Positions 284 through 55,766 of a DNA stretch of 64,000 bases are shown here, piece by piece; positions within the stretch are counted from its first letter, which is position 1; each line of letters starts with the position of its first letter. This DNA comes from Halorhabdus sp. BNX81 (lineage in GTDB: Archaea > Halobacteriota > Halobacteria > Halobacteriales > Haloarculaceae), in contig NZ_CP107254.1 of assembly GCF_029229925.1 (NCBI RefSeq), positions 248,001-312,000 of the forward strand, read 5' to 3'. The notes below the pieces were generated by a model that ran no database searches, was not told the origin of the DNA, and saw only the letters and a program-made list of their open reading frames with translations. The translations under genes were made by a program, and so were the position numbers.

Positions 284-1264
284 ATGAAAGCGATCGAACT
301 CACCCCCGAACATCCGGTCGAAGAGGTACGACGACTGGCCGAGCGCGCCGAGCGCGCCGGCTTCGACACTATCTTCGCGAGCAATCACTACAACAACCGC
401 GATCCGTTCCAAACACTCTCGTCGATCGCGGCGGCGACGGATTCGGTTCAACTTGGCCCCGGCGTGGTCAATCCTTACGAGACACATCCAGTCCGGCTGG
501 CCTCGCGGATGGCGACCCTCGACGAGCTCAGCGACGGCCGCGGCGTCTTCGGGATCGGGGCCGGTGACGCCTCGACGCTCGCCAACCTCGGCGTCGAGCG
601 CGACTCGCCCCTCCGGCGCGTCCTCGAGACGTTCAAGGTCGCCCAGCAGCTCTGGACGGGCGACACCGTCGATCACGACGGCACTTTCCGGGCGACGGAC
701 GCGAGCCTGAACTACGAGGTGGGGGAGATTCCGGTCTACGTTGGCGCACAGGGCCCACACATGCTTCGGATGAGCGGGAAACACGCCGACGGCGTGCTCG
801 TCAACGCCGCCCACCCGGCGGACCTGTCGTGGTCGGCCGACCGGATCGAAGAGGGCCGATCCGAGCGACCGGACGACCGTGGCGATCTCGACGTTGCCGC
901 CTACGCGAGTGTCAGCGTCGCCGAGAGCGAGGACCGCGCCCGGGAGGCCGCTCGACCGCCGGTGGCGTTCATCGTCGGGAGCACCGCGCCGCCGGTACTG
1001 GATCGACATGGGTTGGATCACGACCGCGCGGAACGGATCGGCGACGCCATCGAGCGGGGGGACTTCGAGACGGCTTTCGGCGCGGTCACGCCCGAGATGA
1101 TCGACGCCTTCGCGATCGCCGGGACGAAAGCGACAGTCGCCGATCGGATCGAGGAGGCGATGAACCATGTCGACAGCTTCGTCGCCGCGTCGCCGCTCGG
1201 CCCCGATCTGGAGACGGCGATCGAGCTCGCGGCCGAGGCGCTCGAAACGGCTGCGGCGGAGTAA
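284..1264 (+). CDS. Mer-like F420-dependent oxidoreductase (LLM class)
   Basis: A 326-residue member of the bacterial-luciferase-like, F420-binding family, closest in pattern to 5,10-methylenetetrahydromethanopterin reductase (Mer). The Mer-type motif GAQGPHML lies near residues 154-161, and the N-terminal TIM-barrel segment carries FASNHYNNRDPF and LGPGVVNPYETHPVR. The length fits Mer (about 320-330). In methanogens Mer uses F420H2. Haloarchaea lack methanogenesis, so the homologue probably acts on a folate/pterin C1 carrier or another F420 substrate; the substrate cannot be read from sequence. It lies just after cofE on the same strand. The ATG at 284 is the first in frame and gives the expected N-terminus. 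Confidence 0.82.
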   Translation: MKAIELTPEHPVEEVRRLAERAERAGFDTIFASNHYNNRDPFQTLSSIAAATDSVQLGPGVVNPYETHPVRLASRMATLDELSDGRGVFGIGAGDASTLANLGVERDSPLRRVLETFKVAQQLWTGDTVDHDGTFRATDASLNYEVGEIPVYVGAQGPHMLRMSGKHADGVLVNAAHPADLSWSADRIEEGRSERPDDRGDLDVAAYASVSVAESEDRAREAARPPVAFIVGSTAPPVLDRHGLDHDRAERIGDAIERGDFETAFGAVTPEMIDAFAIAGTKATVADRIEEAMNHVDSFVAASPLGPDLETAIELAAEALETAAAE

Positions 1265-49803: not shown

Positions 49804-49977
49804 ATGAGCGAATACACAGTCACCGGGACGTTTCAGGCCCGTGACGGCTGGCAATCGTTCGAGACGGAGATCGAAGCACCGAACGAGAACGTCGCCGAGG
49901 AGCACACCCTTGCGGAGTTCGGCTCCCAGCACGGGCTCAAACGCTCTCAGATCGAGATCGAGGGGGTAGACGCATGA
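49804..49977 (+). CDS. rplX: Ribosomal protein LX/L18Ae family (50S)
   Basis: A 57-residue protein, MSEYTVTGTFQARDGWQSFE through KRSQIEIEGVDA, the archaeal LX (eL20/L18Ae) subunit of the large ribosomal subunit. Its stop overlaps the prefoldin alpha start by 4 nt (ATGA). The order LX-pfdA-ftsY is a conserved archaeal arrangement; the usual upstream eif6 is absent here. Confidence 0.9.
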   Translation: MSEYTVTGTFQARDGWQSFETEIEAPNENVAEEHTLAEFGSQHGLKRSQIEIEGVDA

Positions 49978-50444
49978 GTCTCGGTGGTGGCGGCGGCGGT
50001 CAGCAGCAACTCCAGGAGATCGCACAAGCGATCGAAGCAATCGACGAGGAACGCGAGGAACTCGAAGCGGAAGTCCAGGACCTCCGCAACAAGCAGACCG
50101 AGATCGACGAGGCGATCGAGGCCATCGAGACGCTCGAAACGGGCTCGACCGTGCAGGTTCCCCTCGGCGGCGACGCCTACGTCCGCGCGGAAGTCCTCGA
50201 TATGGACGAGATCACCGTGAGCCTCGGTGCCGATTACGCGGCCGAGCAGGGACAGGACGACGCGACCGACACCCTCGAACGCAAGCAAGACGCCATCGAC
50301 GACCAGATCGAGCAGCTCTCCGCGGAGATCTCCGATCTCGAAGAGGAGAGCCAACAGCTCGAACAGCAGGCCCAGCAGATGCAACAGCAGCAGATGCAAC
50401 AGCAGATGCAGCAGATGCAACAGCAGGAAGGCGGCGAAGAGTAG
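49974..50444 (+). CDS. pfdA: Prefoldin subunit alpha
   Basis: 156 residues: N- and C-terminal coiled coils joined by two beta hairpins (STVQVPLGGDAYVRAEV, EITVSLGADYAAEQ). The hexameric prefoldin captures unfolded proteins for the thermosome. A glutamine/methionine-rich tail (QQAQQMQQQQMQQQMQQM) is low complexity. It starts in the LX stop and lies 3 nt before ftsY. Confidence 0.93.
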   Translation: MSLGGGGGGQQQLQEIAQAIEAIDEEREELEAEVQDLRNKQTEIDEAIEAIETLETGSTVQVPLGGDAYVRAEVLDMDEITVSLGADYAAEQGQDDATDTLERKQDAIDDQIEQLSAEISDLEEESQQLEQQAQQMQQQQMQQQMQQMQQQEGGEE

Positions 50445-50447
50445 GCG

Positions 50448-51632
50448 ATGTTCGACGGACTGCGCGAGAAGCTCGGCCGCTTCAGCGACGACGTCGAGGA
50501 AGACGTCGACGCCGTCGAAGAAGGTGAGGCCGACGATATCGATGACAGCGGGGCCGACGCTGAGGCCCCGGGTGAGGGTGGGTCTGCGGGAGATGTCACC
50601 CAATCCGCGGCAGAGAGCGACGCATCCAGCGAATCCGATGCAGACGCTGAATCGACGGTCGACACGCAGCCAGCAGACGGCACAGCCGCTACTGAGACGT
50701 CTGCCGAACCGGACGCGTCCACCGAGGACGCGGCGGAACCCGACCGTGGCGTCGCCGAGCGGGCGAAACTCTTTGCGACCGGCAAGACCGTCATCGACGA
50801 GGACGACCTGCAGGACCATCTCGATGATCTCGAACTCACGTTGTTGAGCAGTGACGTCGAGATGAGCGTCGCGGGCGAGATTCTCGACGGCGTCGAGGCG
50901 AACCTCGTCGGCGAGACGCGCCGGCGTCTCCAGAGCACGGGCAACCTCGTGCAAGATTCCCTCCGGGAGGCATTGTACGACGTCATCAGCGTCGGGCAGT
51001 TCGACTTCGAGGAGCGGATCGACGAGGCCGAGAAGCCGGTCGTGATCGTCTTTACGGGCGTCAATGGCGTCGGCAAGACCACGACGATCGCCAAGCTTGC
51101 CCAGTATCTCGAGGAGCGTGGCTACTCGTCGGTGCTGGCCAACGGCGATACCTACCGGGCCGGCGCGAACCAGCAACTCGGCGAACACGCCGACACGCTG
51201 GACGTCCCCTACATTTCTCACGAACAGGGCGGCGACCCGACGGCAGTCATCTACGATGCCGTCGAGTACGCTGAAGCCAACGACGTCGACGTCGTGCTGG
51301 GCGACACGGCGGGGCGACTCCACACCAGCGAAGGGTTGATGGATCAACTCTCGAAGATCGAGCGCATCATCGAGCCGGACATGACGCTGTTCGTCGACGA
51401 GGCCGTCGCCGGCCAGGACGCCGTCACTCGCGCGACTGAATTCAACGACGCCGCCGAGATCGACGGCACGATCCTCACCAAGGCTGACGCCGATCCGCAG
51501 GGCGGCGCGGCGATCTCGATCGCCCACGTCACGGGCAAGCCGATTCTCTTTCTCGGCACCGGCCAGGGCTACGATCACCTCGAACGGTTCGACCCCGAGG
51601 AGGTCGTCGATCAACTGACGCTCGGCGAGTGA
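50448..51632 (+). CDS. ftsY: Signal recognition particle receptor FtsY
   Basis: 394 residues. Residues 1-100 form an acidic tail, then the NG domain: four-helix N domain and GTPase with TGVNGVGKTTTIAKLAQYL, DVVLGDTAGRLHT and TKADADPQGGAAISIAHV. It docks ribosome-SRP complexes at the membrane. In an operon with LX and prefoldin. Confidence 0.96.
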   Translation: MFDGLREKLGRFSDDVEEDVDAVEEGEADDIDDSGADAEAPGEGGSAGDVTQSAAESDASSESDADAESTVDTQPADGTAATETSAEPDASTEDAAEPDRGVAERAKLFATGKTVIDEDDLQDHLDDLELTLLSSDVEMSVAGEILDGVEANLVGETRRRLQSTGNLVQDSLREALYDVISVGQFDFEERIDEAEKPVVIVFTGVNGVGKTTTIAKLAQYLEERGYSSVLANGDTYRAGANQQLGEHADTLDVPYISHEQGGDPTAVIYDAVEYAEANDVDVVLGDTAGRLHTSEGLMDQLSKIERIIEPDMTLFVDEAVAGQDAVTRATEFNDAAEIDGTILTKADADPQGGAAISIAHVTGKPILFLGTGQGYDHLERFDPEEVVDQLTLGE

Positions 51633-51763: not shown

Positions 51764-53536
51764 ATGAATACAGTCGAACAGTGGAAACAGGAGAAACACC
51801 CCCTCGACGTGATCGAGGACGTCACGGAATACGCAGAGGGTGGCCTCTCCTTTTCCGAGATCGAGGATCGGGCGGGCGATGGCGAGTGGGAGCGCCTGAA
51901 GTGGGCCGGGCTGTACGCCCACGGTGAGCACGACGACTTCTTCATGAAGCGGACGAAGGTGCCTGGCGGGTACCTCACACCCGAACAGGCCGAGGTGATC
52001 GGCCAGGTTGCCGACGAATACGCCACCGCACCCGCGGAACACGGTGGCGACGAACAAAACGAGATCTGGGGTGACGCGTATCTGGACATCACCACCCGCC
52101 AGGATATCCAGATGCACTGGATCGCGGTCGAGGAGGTCCCCGAGATCTGGGCGACCTACGACGAGGTTGGCCTGACGACGGTCCAGGGGTGTGGCGACTC
52201 CGCCCGGAACGTGCTGGGGTGTCCCGCGGCCGGACTCGACGAACACGAATGCTTCGACGCCCAGCCCGTGATCGATGCCGTCAACGAATTCTTCACCGAG
52301 AACCGGGAGTACGCCAACCTGCCCCGGAAGTTCAAGATGACGATCACCGGCTGTGCACACGATTGTGGGCAATCCCAGATCAACGACGTGGGCCTGACGC
52401 CGGCCCGGAAGGAAGTGGATGTCTCCGGCGAAGCCGGAGGCTCGTCGGACTCGTCCGACGGTGGCACCGACATCTACGGCTTCCATTGCAAAGTTGGCGG
52501 CGGACTTTCCGATGGCCCGCGGATGGCGACGCAGATGGATGTCTTCGTCCCGCCCGAAGACGCCGTGGAGTTTTGCCGAGCCATCGCCCAGACGTTCAAG
52601 GAGTTGGGCGATCGGAACAACCGCGGGGTCTGCCGGATGCGCTATCTCGTCGAGCAACTCGGCACCGAGGAATTCGAGGCCGCTGTCCGGCGGCGCTGCA
52701 GTGTCGACCTCCCGAAGAGTGGGACCGACCTCACCGAGGGCTATACCGGTGATCACGTCGGCGTCCACGACCAGAAGACGGAGGGGCTAAAGTACGTCGG
52801 GTTCAACGTCATCGCCGGCCGGATGAGCGGCGAGGAGTTCGTCGAGGCCGCCCGCGCGGCGAAGAAATACGGCACCGACGAGGCCTCGATCCGGCTGGCG
52901 ACCGACCAGAACTTCCTGATCACGCACATTCCGGCCGAGAACGTCGGCGACCTCATGGCCGAACCGTTCGCCCGGAAGTACAGCCCCGATCCCGGGCCCT
53001 TCTCTCGGGGCGCGGTCGGCTGTACGGGGTCGGAGTTCTGCAACTACGGCATCATCGAGACGAAGAATCGCGTTTACAAGTGGGCGAAAGCCCTCGACCG
53101 CCGGATCGAGACACCCGATGATCTGGATGTGGTGCGGATGCACATGTCCGGCTGTTCGGCCTCCTGTGCCCAGCCACAGATCGCCGACATCGGGTTCCGG
53201 GGGGAGACGGTGAAGGTCGACGATCCCGAGGACTCGACGAATTTCGAGGGCGACGCCATCGTCGAGGGGATGGACTTCGGCCTGGGCGGCGCGCTCGGGA
53301 CCGACAACGAGTTCCTCGATTGGGTCGAGACCGCGGTGCCCGCCCGGGCGGTGATTCCCGCCCTGGAGGAACTGTTCGCGGCCTACACCGAGGAGCGCAA
53401 CGAGGGCGAACGGTTCTACGCGTGGTGTCGTCGCGTCGAGAACGACCGCCTGCGATCGATCATGCAGGGGGCCGATGCGCCAGTCGCGGCCGGGGTCGCC
53501 CAGGAGACGGGCGGCCGGGGGTCGAGTGATGACTGA
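51764..53536 (+). CDS. Siroheme and 4Fe-4S nitrite/sulfite reductase, assimilatory type
   Basis: 590 residues in the NirA/CysI fold: two ferredoxin-like and two siroheme domains. The Fe-S/siroheme ligands are CTGSEFC (C-x5-C) near residues 424-430 and SGCSASCAQPQIADIG (C-x3-C) near 463-467; another cysteine cluster, TGCAHDCGQSQINDVGL, lies in the first half. Reaction: six-electron reduction of nitrite to ammonium or sulfite to sulfide; nitrite is favoured by overall resemblance, not proven. A serine/glycine insertion (EAGGSSDSSDGGTD) is unusual. It overlaps the FrhB-like gene by 8 nt, implying a functional pair. Confidence 0.85.
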   Translation: MNTVEQWKQEKHPLDVIEDVTEYAEGGLSFSEIEDRAGDGEWERLKWAGLYAHGEHDDFFMKRTKVPGGYLTPEQAEVIGQVADEYATAPAEHGGDEQNEIWGDAYLDITTRQDIQMHWIAVEEVPEIWATYDEVGLTTVQGCGDSARNVLGCPAAGLDEHECFDAQPVIDAVNEFFTENREYANLPRKFKMTITGCAHDCGQSQINDVGLTPARKEVDVSGEAGGSSDSSDGGTDIYGFHCKVGGGLSDGPRMATQMDVFVPPEDAVEFCRAIAQTFKELGDRNNRGVCRMRYLVEQLGTEEFEAAVRRRCSVDLPKSGTDLTEGYTGDHVGVHDQKTEGLKYVGFNVIAGRMSGEEFVEAARAAKKYGTDEASIRLATDQNFLITHIPAENVGDLMAEPFARKYSPDPGPFSRGAVGCTGSEFCNYGIIETKNRVYKWAKALDRRIETPDDLDVVRMHMSGCSASCAQPQIADIGFRGETVKVDDPEDSTNFEGDAIVEGMDFGLGGALGTDNEFLDWVETAVPARAVIPALEELFAAYTEERNEGERFYAWCRRVENDRLRSIMQGADAPVAAGVAQETGGRGSSDD

Positions 53537-54995
53537 CGACCCGCTGCCGGGCGTGCCCGGCGGTCGCGACGAGAGCGGCGGTGCAGACGACGGCGGGTGT
53601 GGCGATGCCTGTGGCTGTGGACGCGAAACGGCGACCGATGGAGGAAGTACACCGACGAACGTCGACGAGCATGGCCAGTTGCGCGACGTCGAGTTCACTC
53701 AACCCGCCCGCGAGGCGAGCCAGGATGTCTACGAGACGCCGCCGGATCAGCGCGTCCAGCGACCCGGCGAGGAACACCTCGAACTCGACACGCCGTCCTA
53801 CGAGATCCGCTCGCGGATGAGCGACATCGAGACGCCCGACGAGAAGACGTGGTTCATGGAACTGGACGACGCCGTGATCGACGACGGGCGGTGCATCCAG
53901 TGTGGCACCTGCGTCGCCTCGTGTCCCAGCGACTCCATCGGCGTCGACGAGAACGGCCTGCCCGAACTCGTCAAGATGTGCACCGGCTGCTCGCTGTGCT
54001 GGGACTTCTGTCCCCGCGGTGGCCTCCGGTACGAGCGTCAGTGGAAGATCACCGGCGGCGACGACAACGTCAGCGGTGCGGGCGACCCGATCACCGAGTT
54101 CTCGGCGAAGGTCGAGGACGACTGGCGGGAGAACGCCCAGGACGGCGGGCTCGTCACGAGCGTGCTGTGCCACCTGCTGGAGGCTGGCGAGATCGACGGC
54201 GCGCTCATCGCCACCGAGAGCGACGAGGACCCCTGGAAGGCCGAGGCCTTTCTCGCCACTTCCCCCGAGGAGTGCATCGAAAACGCCGGGTCGATCTACA
54301 CCCAGACGATGGCGCTGGGGAATCTCGACTTGCAGCAGTGGGATCACAAGATCGACGGGCCGATCGAGGACGCCTCACTTGCCCTCGTGGGTACTCCCTG
54401 CGAGATCGAGGGGATCCGGGCGCTGCAGGACTTCGAGTGGGAGTACGGCAGCCACGAGGAGGGTGTCCGGGCGATCGACTACGCCATCGCGCTCATGTGC
54501 ACGAAGAACTTCAACTACGAGCGCCTCATGGGCGAGCAACTCGTCGAGCAGCGGGACATCGACCTCGACGACGTCGGCAAGATGGACGTGCTCGACGGGA
54601 AGCTGATGGTCTACGACCACGGCGGCGAGTTGATCGTCGACGAGGACGTCGAGAACTTCCACGACGCCGCGCTGAAGGGCTGTGACGAATGTGCGGACTT
54701 CACCGGCTACTGTGCTGATCTGACGGTCGGCTCCGTGGGGTCGAGCGACGAGTACTCCTCCGTGATCGTCCGCACCGAGACAGGGTTGGACGCCTGGAAC
54801 CTGACGAAGGACGATCTGGACTATCACGACCTGGAGGACCGCTCGGCGGTCGGCGGCCTGCAGTCCTGGGACAAGAAGAAAGCGTTCGACGCCTTAGAGC
54901 GCCCGTTCGACCCCGACGCGCCGCGATTCATCGAGTACACCGAGCACGTCGAGCACTACGGGACGACACTGAATCCCCACGACGAAGGGCACTGA
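53529..54995 (+). CDS. FrhB-like F420 dehydrogenase subunit with two Fe-S clusters
   Basis: 488 residues. An N-terminal cysteine cluster (CGDACGCG) is followed by a 2x[4Fe-4S] ferredoxin region (RCIQCGTCVASCPSDS, MCTGCSLCWDFCPRGG near residues 120-165). A domain of the F420-reducing hydrogenase beta type, with LVGTPCEIEGIRAL and KGCDECADFTGYCADLTVGS, binds FAD and F420. The ATG at 53529 overlaps the reductase stop by 8 nt. FrhB-like proteins oxidise F420H2, so it may feed electrons to the adjacent siroheme enzyme. Confidence 0.86.
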   Translation: MTDDPLPGVPGGRDESGGADDGGCGDACGCGRETATDGGSTPTNVDEHGQLRDVEFTQPAREASQDVYETPPDQRVQRPGEEHLELDTPSYEIRSRMSDIETPDEKTWFMELDDAVIDDGRCIQCGTCVASCPSDSIGVDENGLPELVKMCTGCSLCWDFCPRGGLRYERQWKITGGDDNVSGAGDPITEFSAKVEDDWRENAQDGGLVTSVLCHLLEAGEIDGALIATESDEDPWKAEAFLATSPEECIENAGSIYTQTMALGNLDLQQWDHKIDGPIEDASLALVGTPCEIEGIRALQDFEWEYGSHEEGVRAIDYAIALMCTKNFNYERLMGEQLVEQRDIDLDDVGKMDVLDGKLMVYDHGGELIVDEDVENFHDAALKGCDECADFTGYCADLTVGSVGSSDEYSSVIVRTETGLDAWNLTKDDLDYHDLEDRSAVGGLQSWDKKKAFDALERPFDPDAPRFIEYTEHVEHYGTTLNPHDEGH

Positions 54996-55027: not shown

Positions 55028-55420
55028 TCAGTACGTTTGCACGTCCACCTTTTCGATCCGTTCGAAGTGTTCCCGGTTCCGCGTCAGGACGGGTTCGTCT
55101 TCGAGCAGTGCCGTCGCAGCGATCACGCAATCCTCACGATCGATCCGCTCACCGTTGGCGGCGAGTTGGCCGGATATCTGACCAGCCCGTCGCATCACGT
55201 CCTGATCCGCCGGGACGACGACTTTCGAATCAAGCACTTCCAGGACGGCCGTCCGTTCGTCTTCAGGCCGTCCTGACTGGGCGACACCCTCGTAGAGTTC
55301 CAGGACGGTGACTGCCGAAAGCTTCTCGGGGATGCGCTCGCGTTCCATCCGCCTCACCGCCTCGAATGCACCCTCGTCTCCCCGGATGATGTCGACGACG
55401 AACGACGTGTCCTGAATCAT
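55028..55420 (-). CDS. VapC-type PIN-domain toxin (third module)
   Basis: A 130-residue PIN domain: IQDTSFVVDIIRG, LELYEGVAQSG, REDCVIAATALLEDEP and TRNREHFERI carry the acidic sites. It starts in the antitoxin stop with a 4-nt overlap. It resembles the second VapC closely (same ADQDVMRRAGQISGQL-type segment as ADAAVMRKAGQLSGEL). Confidence 0.88.
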   Translation of the reverse strand: MIQDTSFVVDIIRGDEGAFEAVRRMERERIPEKLSAVTVLELYEGVAQSGRPEDERTAVLEVLDSKVVVPADQDVMRRAGQISGQLAANGERIDREDCVIAATALLEDEPVLTRNREHFERIEKVDVQTY

Positions 55421-55656
55421 TTCTTCCCGTGGCTCTCTTCGACGGATTCCCGACGTCGTTCACGCGATCGAGCGCGACCCCGCTCGATAGCTGCTTCCAG
55501 ATCGTCGGTTTTGCCCTCCCAGATTCCAGCGACTTCCGACCAAGACCGTTCACCGGCCAGTCGCTTGACGACGTCGCTAAAGCTTTCCCCCTCGTGTTTT
55601 TCTGCCCGGAGACGCTCGTAGGCCTCCTCGTCCAGCGAAATGGTTTTCGTCGCCAT
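55417..55656 (-). CDS. VapB-type antitoxin (DUF217-like, third module)
   Basis: 79 residues, MATKTISLDEEAYERLRAEK, ribbon-helix-helix-like, with a basic, charged tail. Longer starts to 55755 are shadow. Two palindromes lie directly upstream, with TTTTTAAG as TATA box about 30 nt before the ATG. Confidence 0.86.
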   Translation of the reverse strand: MATKTISLDEEAYERLRAEKHEGESFSDVVKRLAGERSWSEVAGIWEGKTDDLEAAIERGRARSRERRRESVEESHGKK

Positions 55657-55660
55657 TAAT

Positions 55661-55682
55661 ACACAGTTGTGTATGTACATAC
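55661..55682. promoter_or_regulatory. Palindromes upstream of third antitoxin
   Basis: ACACAGTTGTGT (55661-55672; 5-bp arms) and the perfect palindrome GTATGTACATAC (55671-55682) sit between the TATA box and the ATG, positioned to block the promoter. Confidence 0.55.
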
Positions 55683-55766
55683 TTAAAAACACGTGTCGGT
55701 TGATGGTTTGGTGCGGGAGGCGTCCTTCGGTATCCCGAACATCTAATTGTATCAATCGAAAATAAC

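Follow-up and report, generated by a model that had tools for sequence, protein, structure and literature searches.

Two overlapping genes of a Halorhabdus chromosome probably specify a heteromeric sulfite reductase that depends on F420H2 (aFsr), as judged from their sequences and those of their relatives. The beta subunit would oxidise F420H2 on an FAD and pass single electrons from its own [4Fe-4S] cluster, through both ferredoxin-domain clusters, to the siroheme-[4Fe-4S] site in alpha, where sulfite would be reduced to sulfide, a six-electron step consuming three F420H2. We infer that the two subunits form a complex, that F420H2 is the donor, that transfer from beta to alpha is direct and that the role is assimilatory.

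The idea of a two-gene aFsr is not new. A putative aFsr of haloarchaea, combining an aSir-type alpha with an Fsr-N-type beta, was proposed in 2012, with H. utahensis named (Susanti & Mukhopadhyay, PMC3448663), and was still termed putative in 2022 (PMC9295563); a search of the open-licence literature found no experimental work or assay on it. A Natronomonas homologue, NP_4006A, has been judged too distant from MJ0870 for a shared function to be assumed (PMC8305020). A split F420H2-dependent siroheme reductase was also what the sequence-only reading of this DNA had proposed; comparative support for it is good (pairing, overlap and clades), and F420H2 as donor is the part that we infer. New here are the genome-scale counts of pairing and overlap, the four NirA clades, the choice of sulfite over nitrite, the cof gene context and the FrhB partner of a sulfurtransferase fusion. 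An F420H2-driven sulfite reductase would bear both on sulfide formation and on the role of F420, a cofactor that haloarchaea make but whose function in them has been called undetermined or enigmatic (PMC8498797, PMC8305020).

The gene pair and its surroundings

The window, i.e., the whole stretch of 64,000 nt that was analysed, covers positions 248001–312000 of a 2.83-Mb haloarchaeal chromosome. Its relevant genes are as follows.

3–212: cofE, 3′ end only (last ~70 codons within the window)
284–1264, plus strand: mer (F420-dependent methylene reductase family), complete; NCBIfam mer above cut-off
49974–50444, plus strand: prefoldin alpha, upstream neighbour
50448–51632, plus strand: ftsY, upstream neighbour
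51764–53536, plus strand: alpha (aFsr-alpha, clade A), putative siroheme/4Fe-4S sulfite reductase of NirA/aSiR type, 590 aa
53529–53536, plus strand: overlap of alpha and beta, 8 nt
53529–54995, plus strand: beta (aFsr-beta), putative F420H2 oxidase of FrhB/Fsr-N type with an N-terminal 2x[4Fe-4S] ferredoxin domain, 488 aa

Alpha and beta are two separate ORFs, with no single-polypeptide fusion, and the 8 nt overlap that had been read between a NirA/CysI-type gene and an FrhB-type gene was confirmed. The beta ORF opens at 53475, and translation likely begins at 53529 (ATGACTGA) rather than at that point. Among named organisms, Halorhabdus amylolytica has the pair most like this one (beta 92%, alpha 94%). 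The window had also been said to hold cofE and a Mer-like gene; the latter is complete, while cofE is represented only by its end. Directly downstream of the pair (55028–55755, minus strand) are two small ORFs that by eye resemble a VapC (PIN) toxin and an antitoxin.

Pairing of FrhB with NirA and the four NirA clades

Pairing was counted in an even sample of 116 haloarchaeal genomes and, separately, in a set of 80 named FrhB loci. Of the 116 genomes, 28 carry FrhB_FdhB_C, at 37 places in all, and 99 carry NIR_SIR; Haloferax volcanii is a species without an FrhB gene. By coordinates, 36 of the 37 FrhB genes lie directly downstream of a NirA-type gene, and at 79 of the 80 named loci the immediate upstream neighbour is likewise of NirA type and on the same strand. 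This adjacency is not due to chance. In 81 of 86 clade A loci an in-frame beta start was present within alpha, giving an overlap of 8 or 11 nt; starts were chosen by rule (nearest the alpha stop), so that the exact start is rule-based while its constancy is not built in. Beyond the Halobacteria but within the phylum, 16 FrhB loci, the nearest ones fetched, showed no NirA within about 1.5 kb.

A tree of the NirA proteins of the fetched loci resolved four clades, A to D, each on one side of a branch, with supports of 100, 99, 100 and 95 in that order. Clades A and B fell together with a support of 80, a join made less certain by the very long E. coli root. FrhB was present at all clade A loci read (86) and all clade B loci read (11), and at no clade C or D locus read. 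The division is also visible at the C-terminus, where the motif DPxLxxxKxxWYP occurs in 63 of 70 clade C/D proteins and in none of 96 clade A/B proteins. Absence of the FrhB gene from most nirA loci had been named as something that would refute the split enzyme, and it is literally the case (by our count in the 116 genomes, a partner stands at 36 of about 159 NirA-type genes), but it is no refutation, since it is in other clades that FrhB is lacking.

By Pfam search, the genome that holds the window encodes four NIR_SIR proteins (clades A to D) and two FrhB proteins. Its clade C gene adjoins a nasA-like molybdopterin oxidoreductase and an MFS transporter, and its clade D gene adjoins CbiX and a uroporphyrinogen methyltransferase (siroheme synthesis); neither has an FrhB neighbour. 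Clades A and D are nearly exclusive: 6 genomes with A also have D and 19 do not, against 72 and 19 among the other genomes (Fisher 6e-7; p=0.02 within family f3 alone), a pattern that is partly phylogenetic. This is consistent with clade A standing in for a sulfite reductase.

In Halorubrum laminariae, one contig carries two copies of the pair (L047, L048), separated by ~41 kb and equally similar to the query (77% and 84% identity), reflecting either a recent duplication or an assembly effect.

The beta subunit and its electron donor

Beta matches FrhB_FdhB_C (7.7e-33), FrhB_FdhB_N (4e-22) and a 4Fe-4S dicluster domain in Pfam. The following features were located, all on the plus strand.

53598–53618: short cysteine motif CGDACGC in the variable N-terminal tail (CX3-6CXC in relatives)
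53892–54011: two complete ferredoxin motifs, C122-C125-C128-C132 and C151-C154-C157-C161
54135–54788: predicted F420H2-oxidase domain (FrhB_FdhB N and C), with C291, C324, C385 and C388 for a third [4Fe-4S] cluster (invariant in clades A and B)

Beta thus has 12 cysteines for three 4Fe-4S clusters, eight of ferredoxin type and four of the FrhB core. Each is at least 99% conserved across betas, and they are conserved in clades A and B alike. The CX3-6CXC motif is found in ~84% of clade A betas, floating in a hypervariable acidic tail, and is absent from clade B; it may possibly serve in metal or sulfide handling.

The nearest PDB sequences to beta are a component of an F420-reducing CODH (1.6e-41) and then Fsr (4.9e-38), with a component of an F420-reducing formylmethanofuran dehydrogenase also among the best matches. 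The order by fold is the same as that by sequence, using a mediocre model of beta (mean pLDDT 60). An F420H2 donor is not the only reading of such a protein. FrhB-fold enzymes such as HCAR (plants) and BciB take electrons from ferredoxin, and HCAR, a chlorophyll enzyme, has the fold of beta (E about 1e-14, with a model of moderate quality). The related clades C and D, lacking FrhB, must use another donor, and clade D shows that a NirA-type sulfite reductase can evidently do so. Beta might then be an adaptor for electrons from ferredoxin or some other donor. We regard this as unlikely: by sequence, beta matches F420 enzymes (1e-41 to 1e-23) far better than it matches HCAR (only E=0.024), its layout of a two-cluster ferredoxin domain joined to an F420H2-oxidase domain is that of Fsr-N and FpoF, and ten pairs are found among genes of F420 synthesis.

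These ten have cofC, cofG or cofH within the fetched stretch. Eight show the order cofC-cofG-alpha-beta, followed in seven by cofH on the opposite strand; one of the remaining two has cofH only and the other (L212) carries the pair between cofC and cofG. The cof context is evidence independent of FrhB homology, but the ten loci are not unrelated to one another, and such closeness to cofG is seen for just one clade A pair (genome G039) in the even sample of 116 genomes. The window pair follows ftsY, with cofG ~18 kb away. Across pair loci the contexts are prefoldin-ftsY (a frequent setting of clade A pairs, with a prefoldin gene in 42 loci), cof genes (10 loci) or otherwise varied, and most adjoin neither F420 nor sulfur genes; a sulfur-assimilation operon around the pair was looked for in these contexts and not found. 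All 116 genomes carry cofG, and the genome studied here has npdG (F420-NADP), so that NADPH can recharge F420.

The alpha subunit and its substrate

Alpha matches NIR_SIR (7.5e-54) and NIR_SIR_ferr (7e-29) in a four-domain arrangement, with no Fer4 matches, i.e., without the inserted ferredoxin domain of Dsr-like enzymes. Two active-site features, both on the plus strand, bear on its substrate.

52334–52336: codon of K191 (E. coli SiR K217), the residue of LPRK-F-K that is of sulfite type; clade C, which is linked to nasA, has Asn
53021–53167: C420, C426, C464 and C468, siroheme-[4Fe-4S] ligands (E. coli C434/C440/C479/C483)

Alignment to CysI showed that R83, R153, K215 and the four cluster cysteines (E. 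coli numbering) are kept in all four clades. K189 and K191 of alpha correspond to K215 and K217, so both sulfite-binding lysines of the E. coli enzyme are present, as they are in all checked proteins of clades A, B and D. At the position of K217, Lys stands in 84 clade A, 7 clade B and 36 clade D proteins and Asn in all 25 of clade C, and alignments to PDB sequences showed Asn in plant nitrite reductases as well. From the plant enzymes together with the alignments, we take this position to discriminate sulfite from nitrite reductases. Since clade A has Lys and the nasA-linked clade C has Asn, the pair is read as being of the sulfite type; alpha in the window also has no nasA neighbour, while the clade C protein of the same genome combines Asn with a nas context. 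The pair is thus most likely a sulfite reductase by its predicted active site, and not the nitrite reductase of nitrate assimilation.

Nitrite had been offered beside sulfite as a substrate, and an F420H2-dependent nitrite reductase, acting in nitrate assimilation or nitrite removal, has some points in its favour. In the PDB, alpha is matched most closely by plant nitrite reductases, FsrII of ANME reduces nitrite with F420H2 (PMC9295563), and Fsr has nitrite reduction as a side activity (PMC10202398). Against it, every orthologue read in clades A and B has the sulfite-type Lys, Asn being confined to clade C; nasA stands beside clade C and not beside A or B, the nitrate-linked nitrite reductase of this genome being the clade C gene in its nasA cluster; and the clade B paralogue is fused to a sulfurtransferase. 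We consider this reading improbable, and nitrite reduction as the main role was rejected on the active site and clade context, while by analogy with Fsr and FsrII nitrite may be a side substrate of the putative sulfite reductase.

Least probable of all is that the two genes are merely co-transcribed and act separately, beta being for example an F420H2 dehydrogenase for several acceptors: the FrhB genes without a NirA neighbour (L206, by a TcuA-like flavoprotein, and L108) indicate that beta can be recruited elsewhere, but the pairing of 36 in 37 and an overlap kept at 8 or 11 nt speak against it.

The orphan FrhB of L206 (5788–8873, genome G104) is clade A-like (72% identity) and adjoins a TcuA/fumarate-reductase-like flavoprotein and a short-chain dehydrogenase; it perhaps belongs to another F420H2-driven reductase.

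Comparison with known systems

The putative aFsr of PMC3448663 is the same gene pair with the same division of labour, in the same genus. Like it, the window pair has an aSir/NirA-type alpha beside an Fsr-N-type beta, with the FrhB core, two ferredoxin motifs and a sulfite-type site. Fsr of Methanocaldococcus and Methanothermococcus (EC 1.8.98.3; PDB 7NP8, 7NPA; PMC10229431) also joins an F420H2-oxidase half with an N-terminal ferredoxin domain to a siroheme-[4Fe-4S] sulfite reductase, but as one chain instead of two. Its reductase half is short and Dsr-like with an inserted ferredoxin domain, whereas alpha is of the four-domain aSiR/NirA type without the insert, and beta, unlike Fsr, has a complete second ferredoxin motif. 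The pair would be a naturally split version of the methanogen fusion enzyme, drawn from a different reductase family.

The closest stand-alone relatives of beta in both sequence and fold are FpoF/FqoF and the beta subunits of F420-reducing CODH and Fmd (PDB 8RIU, 8RJA), whose partners differ, namely a complex-I-like dehydrogenase, CODH and formylmethanofuran dehydrogenase. Alpha shares its four domains, R83, R153, K215, K217 and four cluster cysteines with E. coli CysI and the ferredoxin-dependent NirA/SirA; these enzymes have no FrhB subunit and receive electrons from CysJ (NADPH) and free ferredoxin, respectively.

A clade B sulfurtransferase fusion and the supply of sulfite

A second overlapping pair, of clade B, is present in the same genome (C1:1485664–1489309; locus L011, 13665–17310). 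Its alpha, of 793 aa, has a tandem rhodanese fused to the N-terminal side of the NirA-type reductase, and overlaps its own FrhB gene by 11 nt. The same arrangement, a tandem sulfurtransferase–NirA fusion with an overlapping or abutting FrhB gene, was found in 11 loci. The tandem matches thiosulfate and mercaptopyruvate sulfurtransferases, and the CNTARR loop of its second rhodanese domain is invariant (11/11). Rhodanese–NirA fusions of this kind are described for Halobacteria in PMC11237513 (2024), which counts 19 of 529; a report of an FrhB partner, present here in 11 of 11, was found neither in its passages on the fusion nor elsewhere in the open-licence literature.

From its domains, the clade B tandem could release sulfite from thiosulfate beside the reductase: the sulfurtransferase domain would take sulfane sulfur from thiosulfate and hand sulfite to the attached reductase. 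Classical sulfate assimilation was rejected as the source feeding the pair, ATP sulfurylase occurring in only 3 of the 116 haloarchaeal genomes, none of which has the pair, and CysD above cut-off in none of the 116. This scarcity of recognisable sulfate activation agrees with an account in which sequenced haloarchaea lack the sulfate-to-PAPS route, so that little is known of how they form hydrogen sulfide (PMC3402447); the same paper relays a route, proposed before it, from thiosulfate by way of sulfite to sulfide, though its own strain grew on sulfate. The fusion is what one would expect for a thiosulfate route. A wider and rather doubtful proposal, resting on these gene arrangements, is that the sulfide supply of haloarchaea might run on F420H2 and not on ferredoxin or NADPH, and that the clade B complex might be an F420H2-driven thiosulfate-to-sulfide enzyme. 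If true, F420 would gain a main role in haloarchaea, and sulfide formation without known sulfate activation would be explained.

A 325-aa PP-loop protein with a GGKDS motif and weak similarity to CysD/PAPS reductase is encoded elsewhere in the genome (C1:about 746000; locus L265, 1219–2196, minus strand). Weak CysD-type matches of similar open-frame length occur in 114 of the 116 haloarchaeal genomes, and the protein could bear on the missing sulfate activation.
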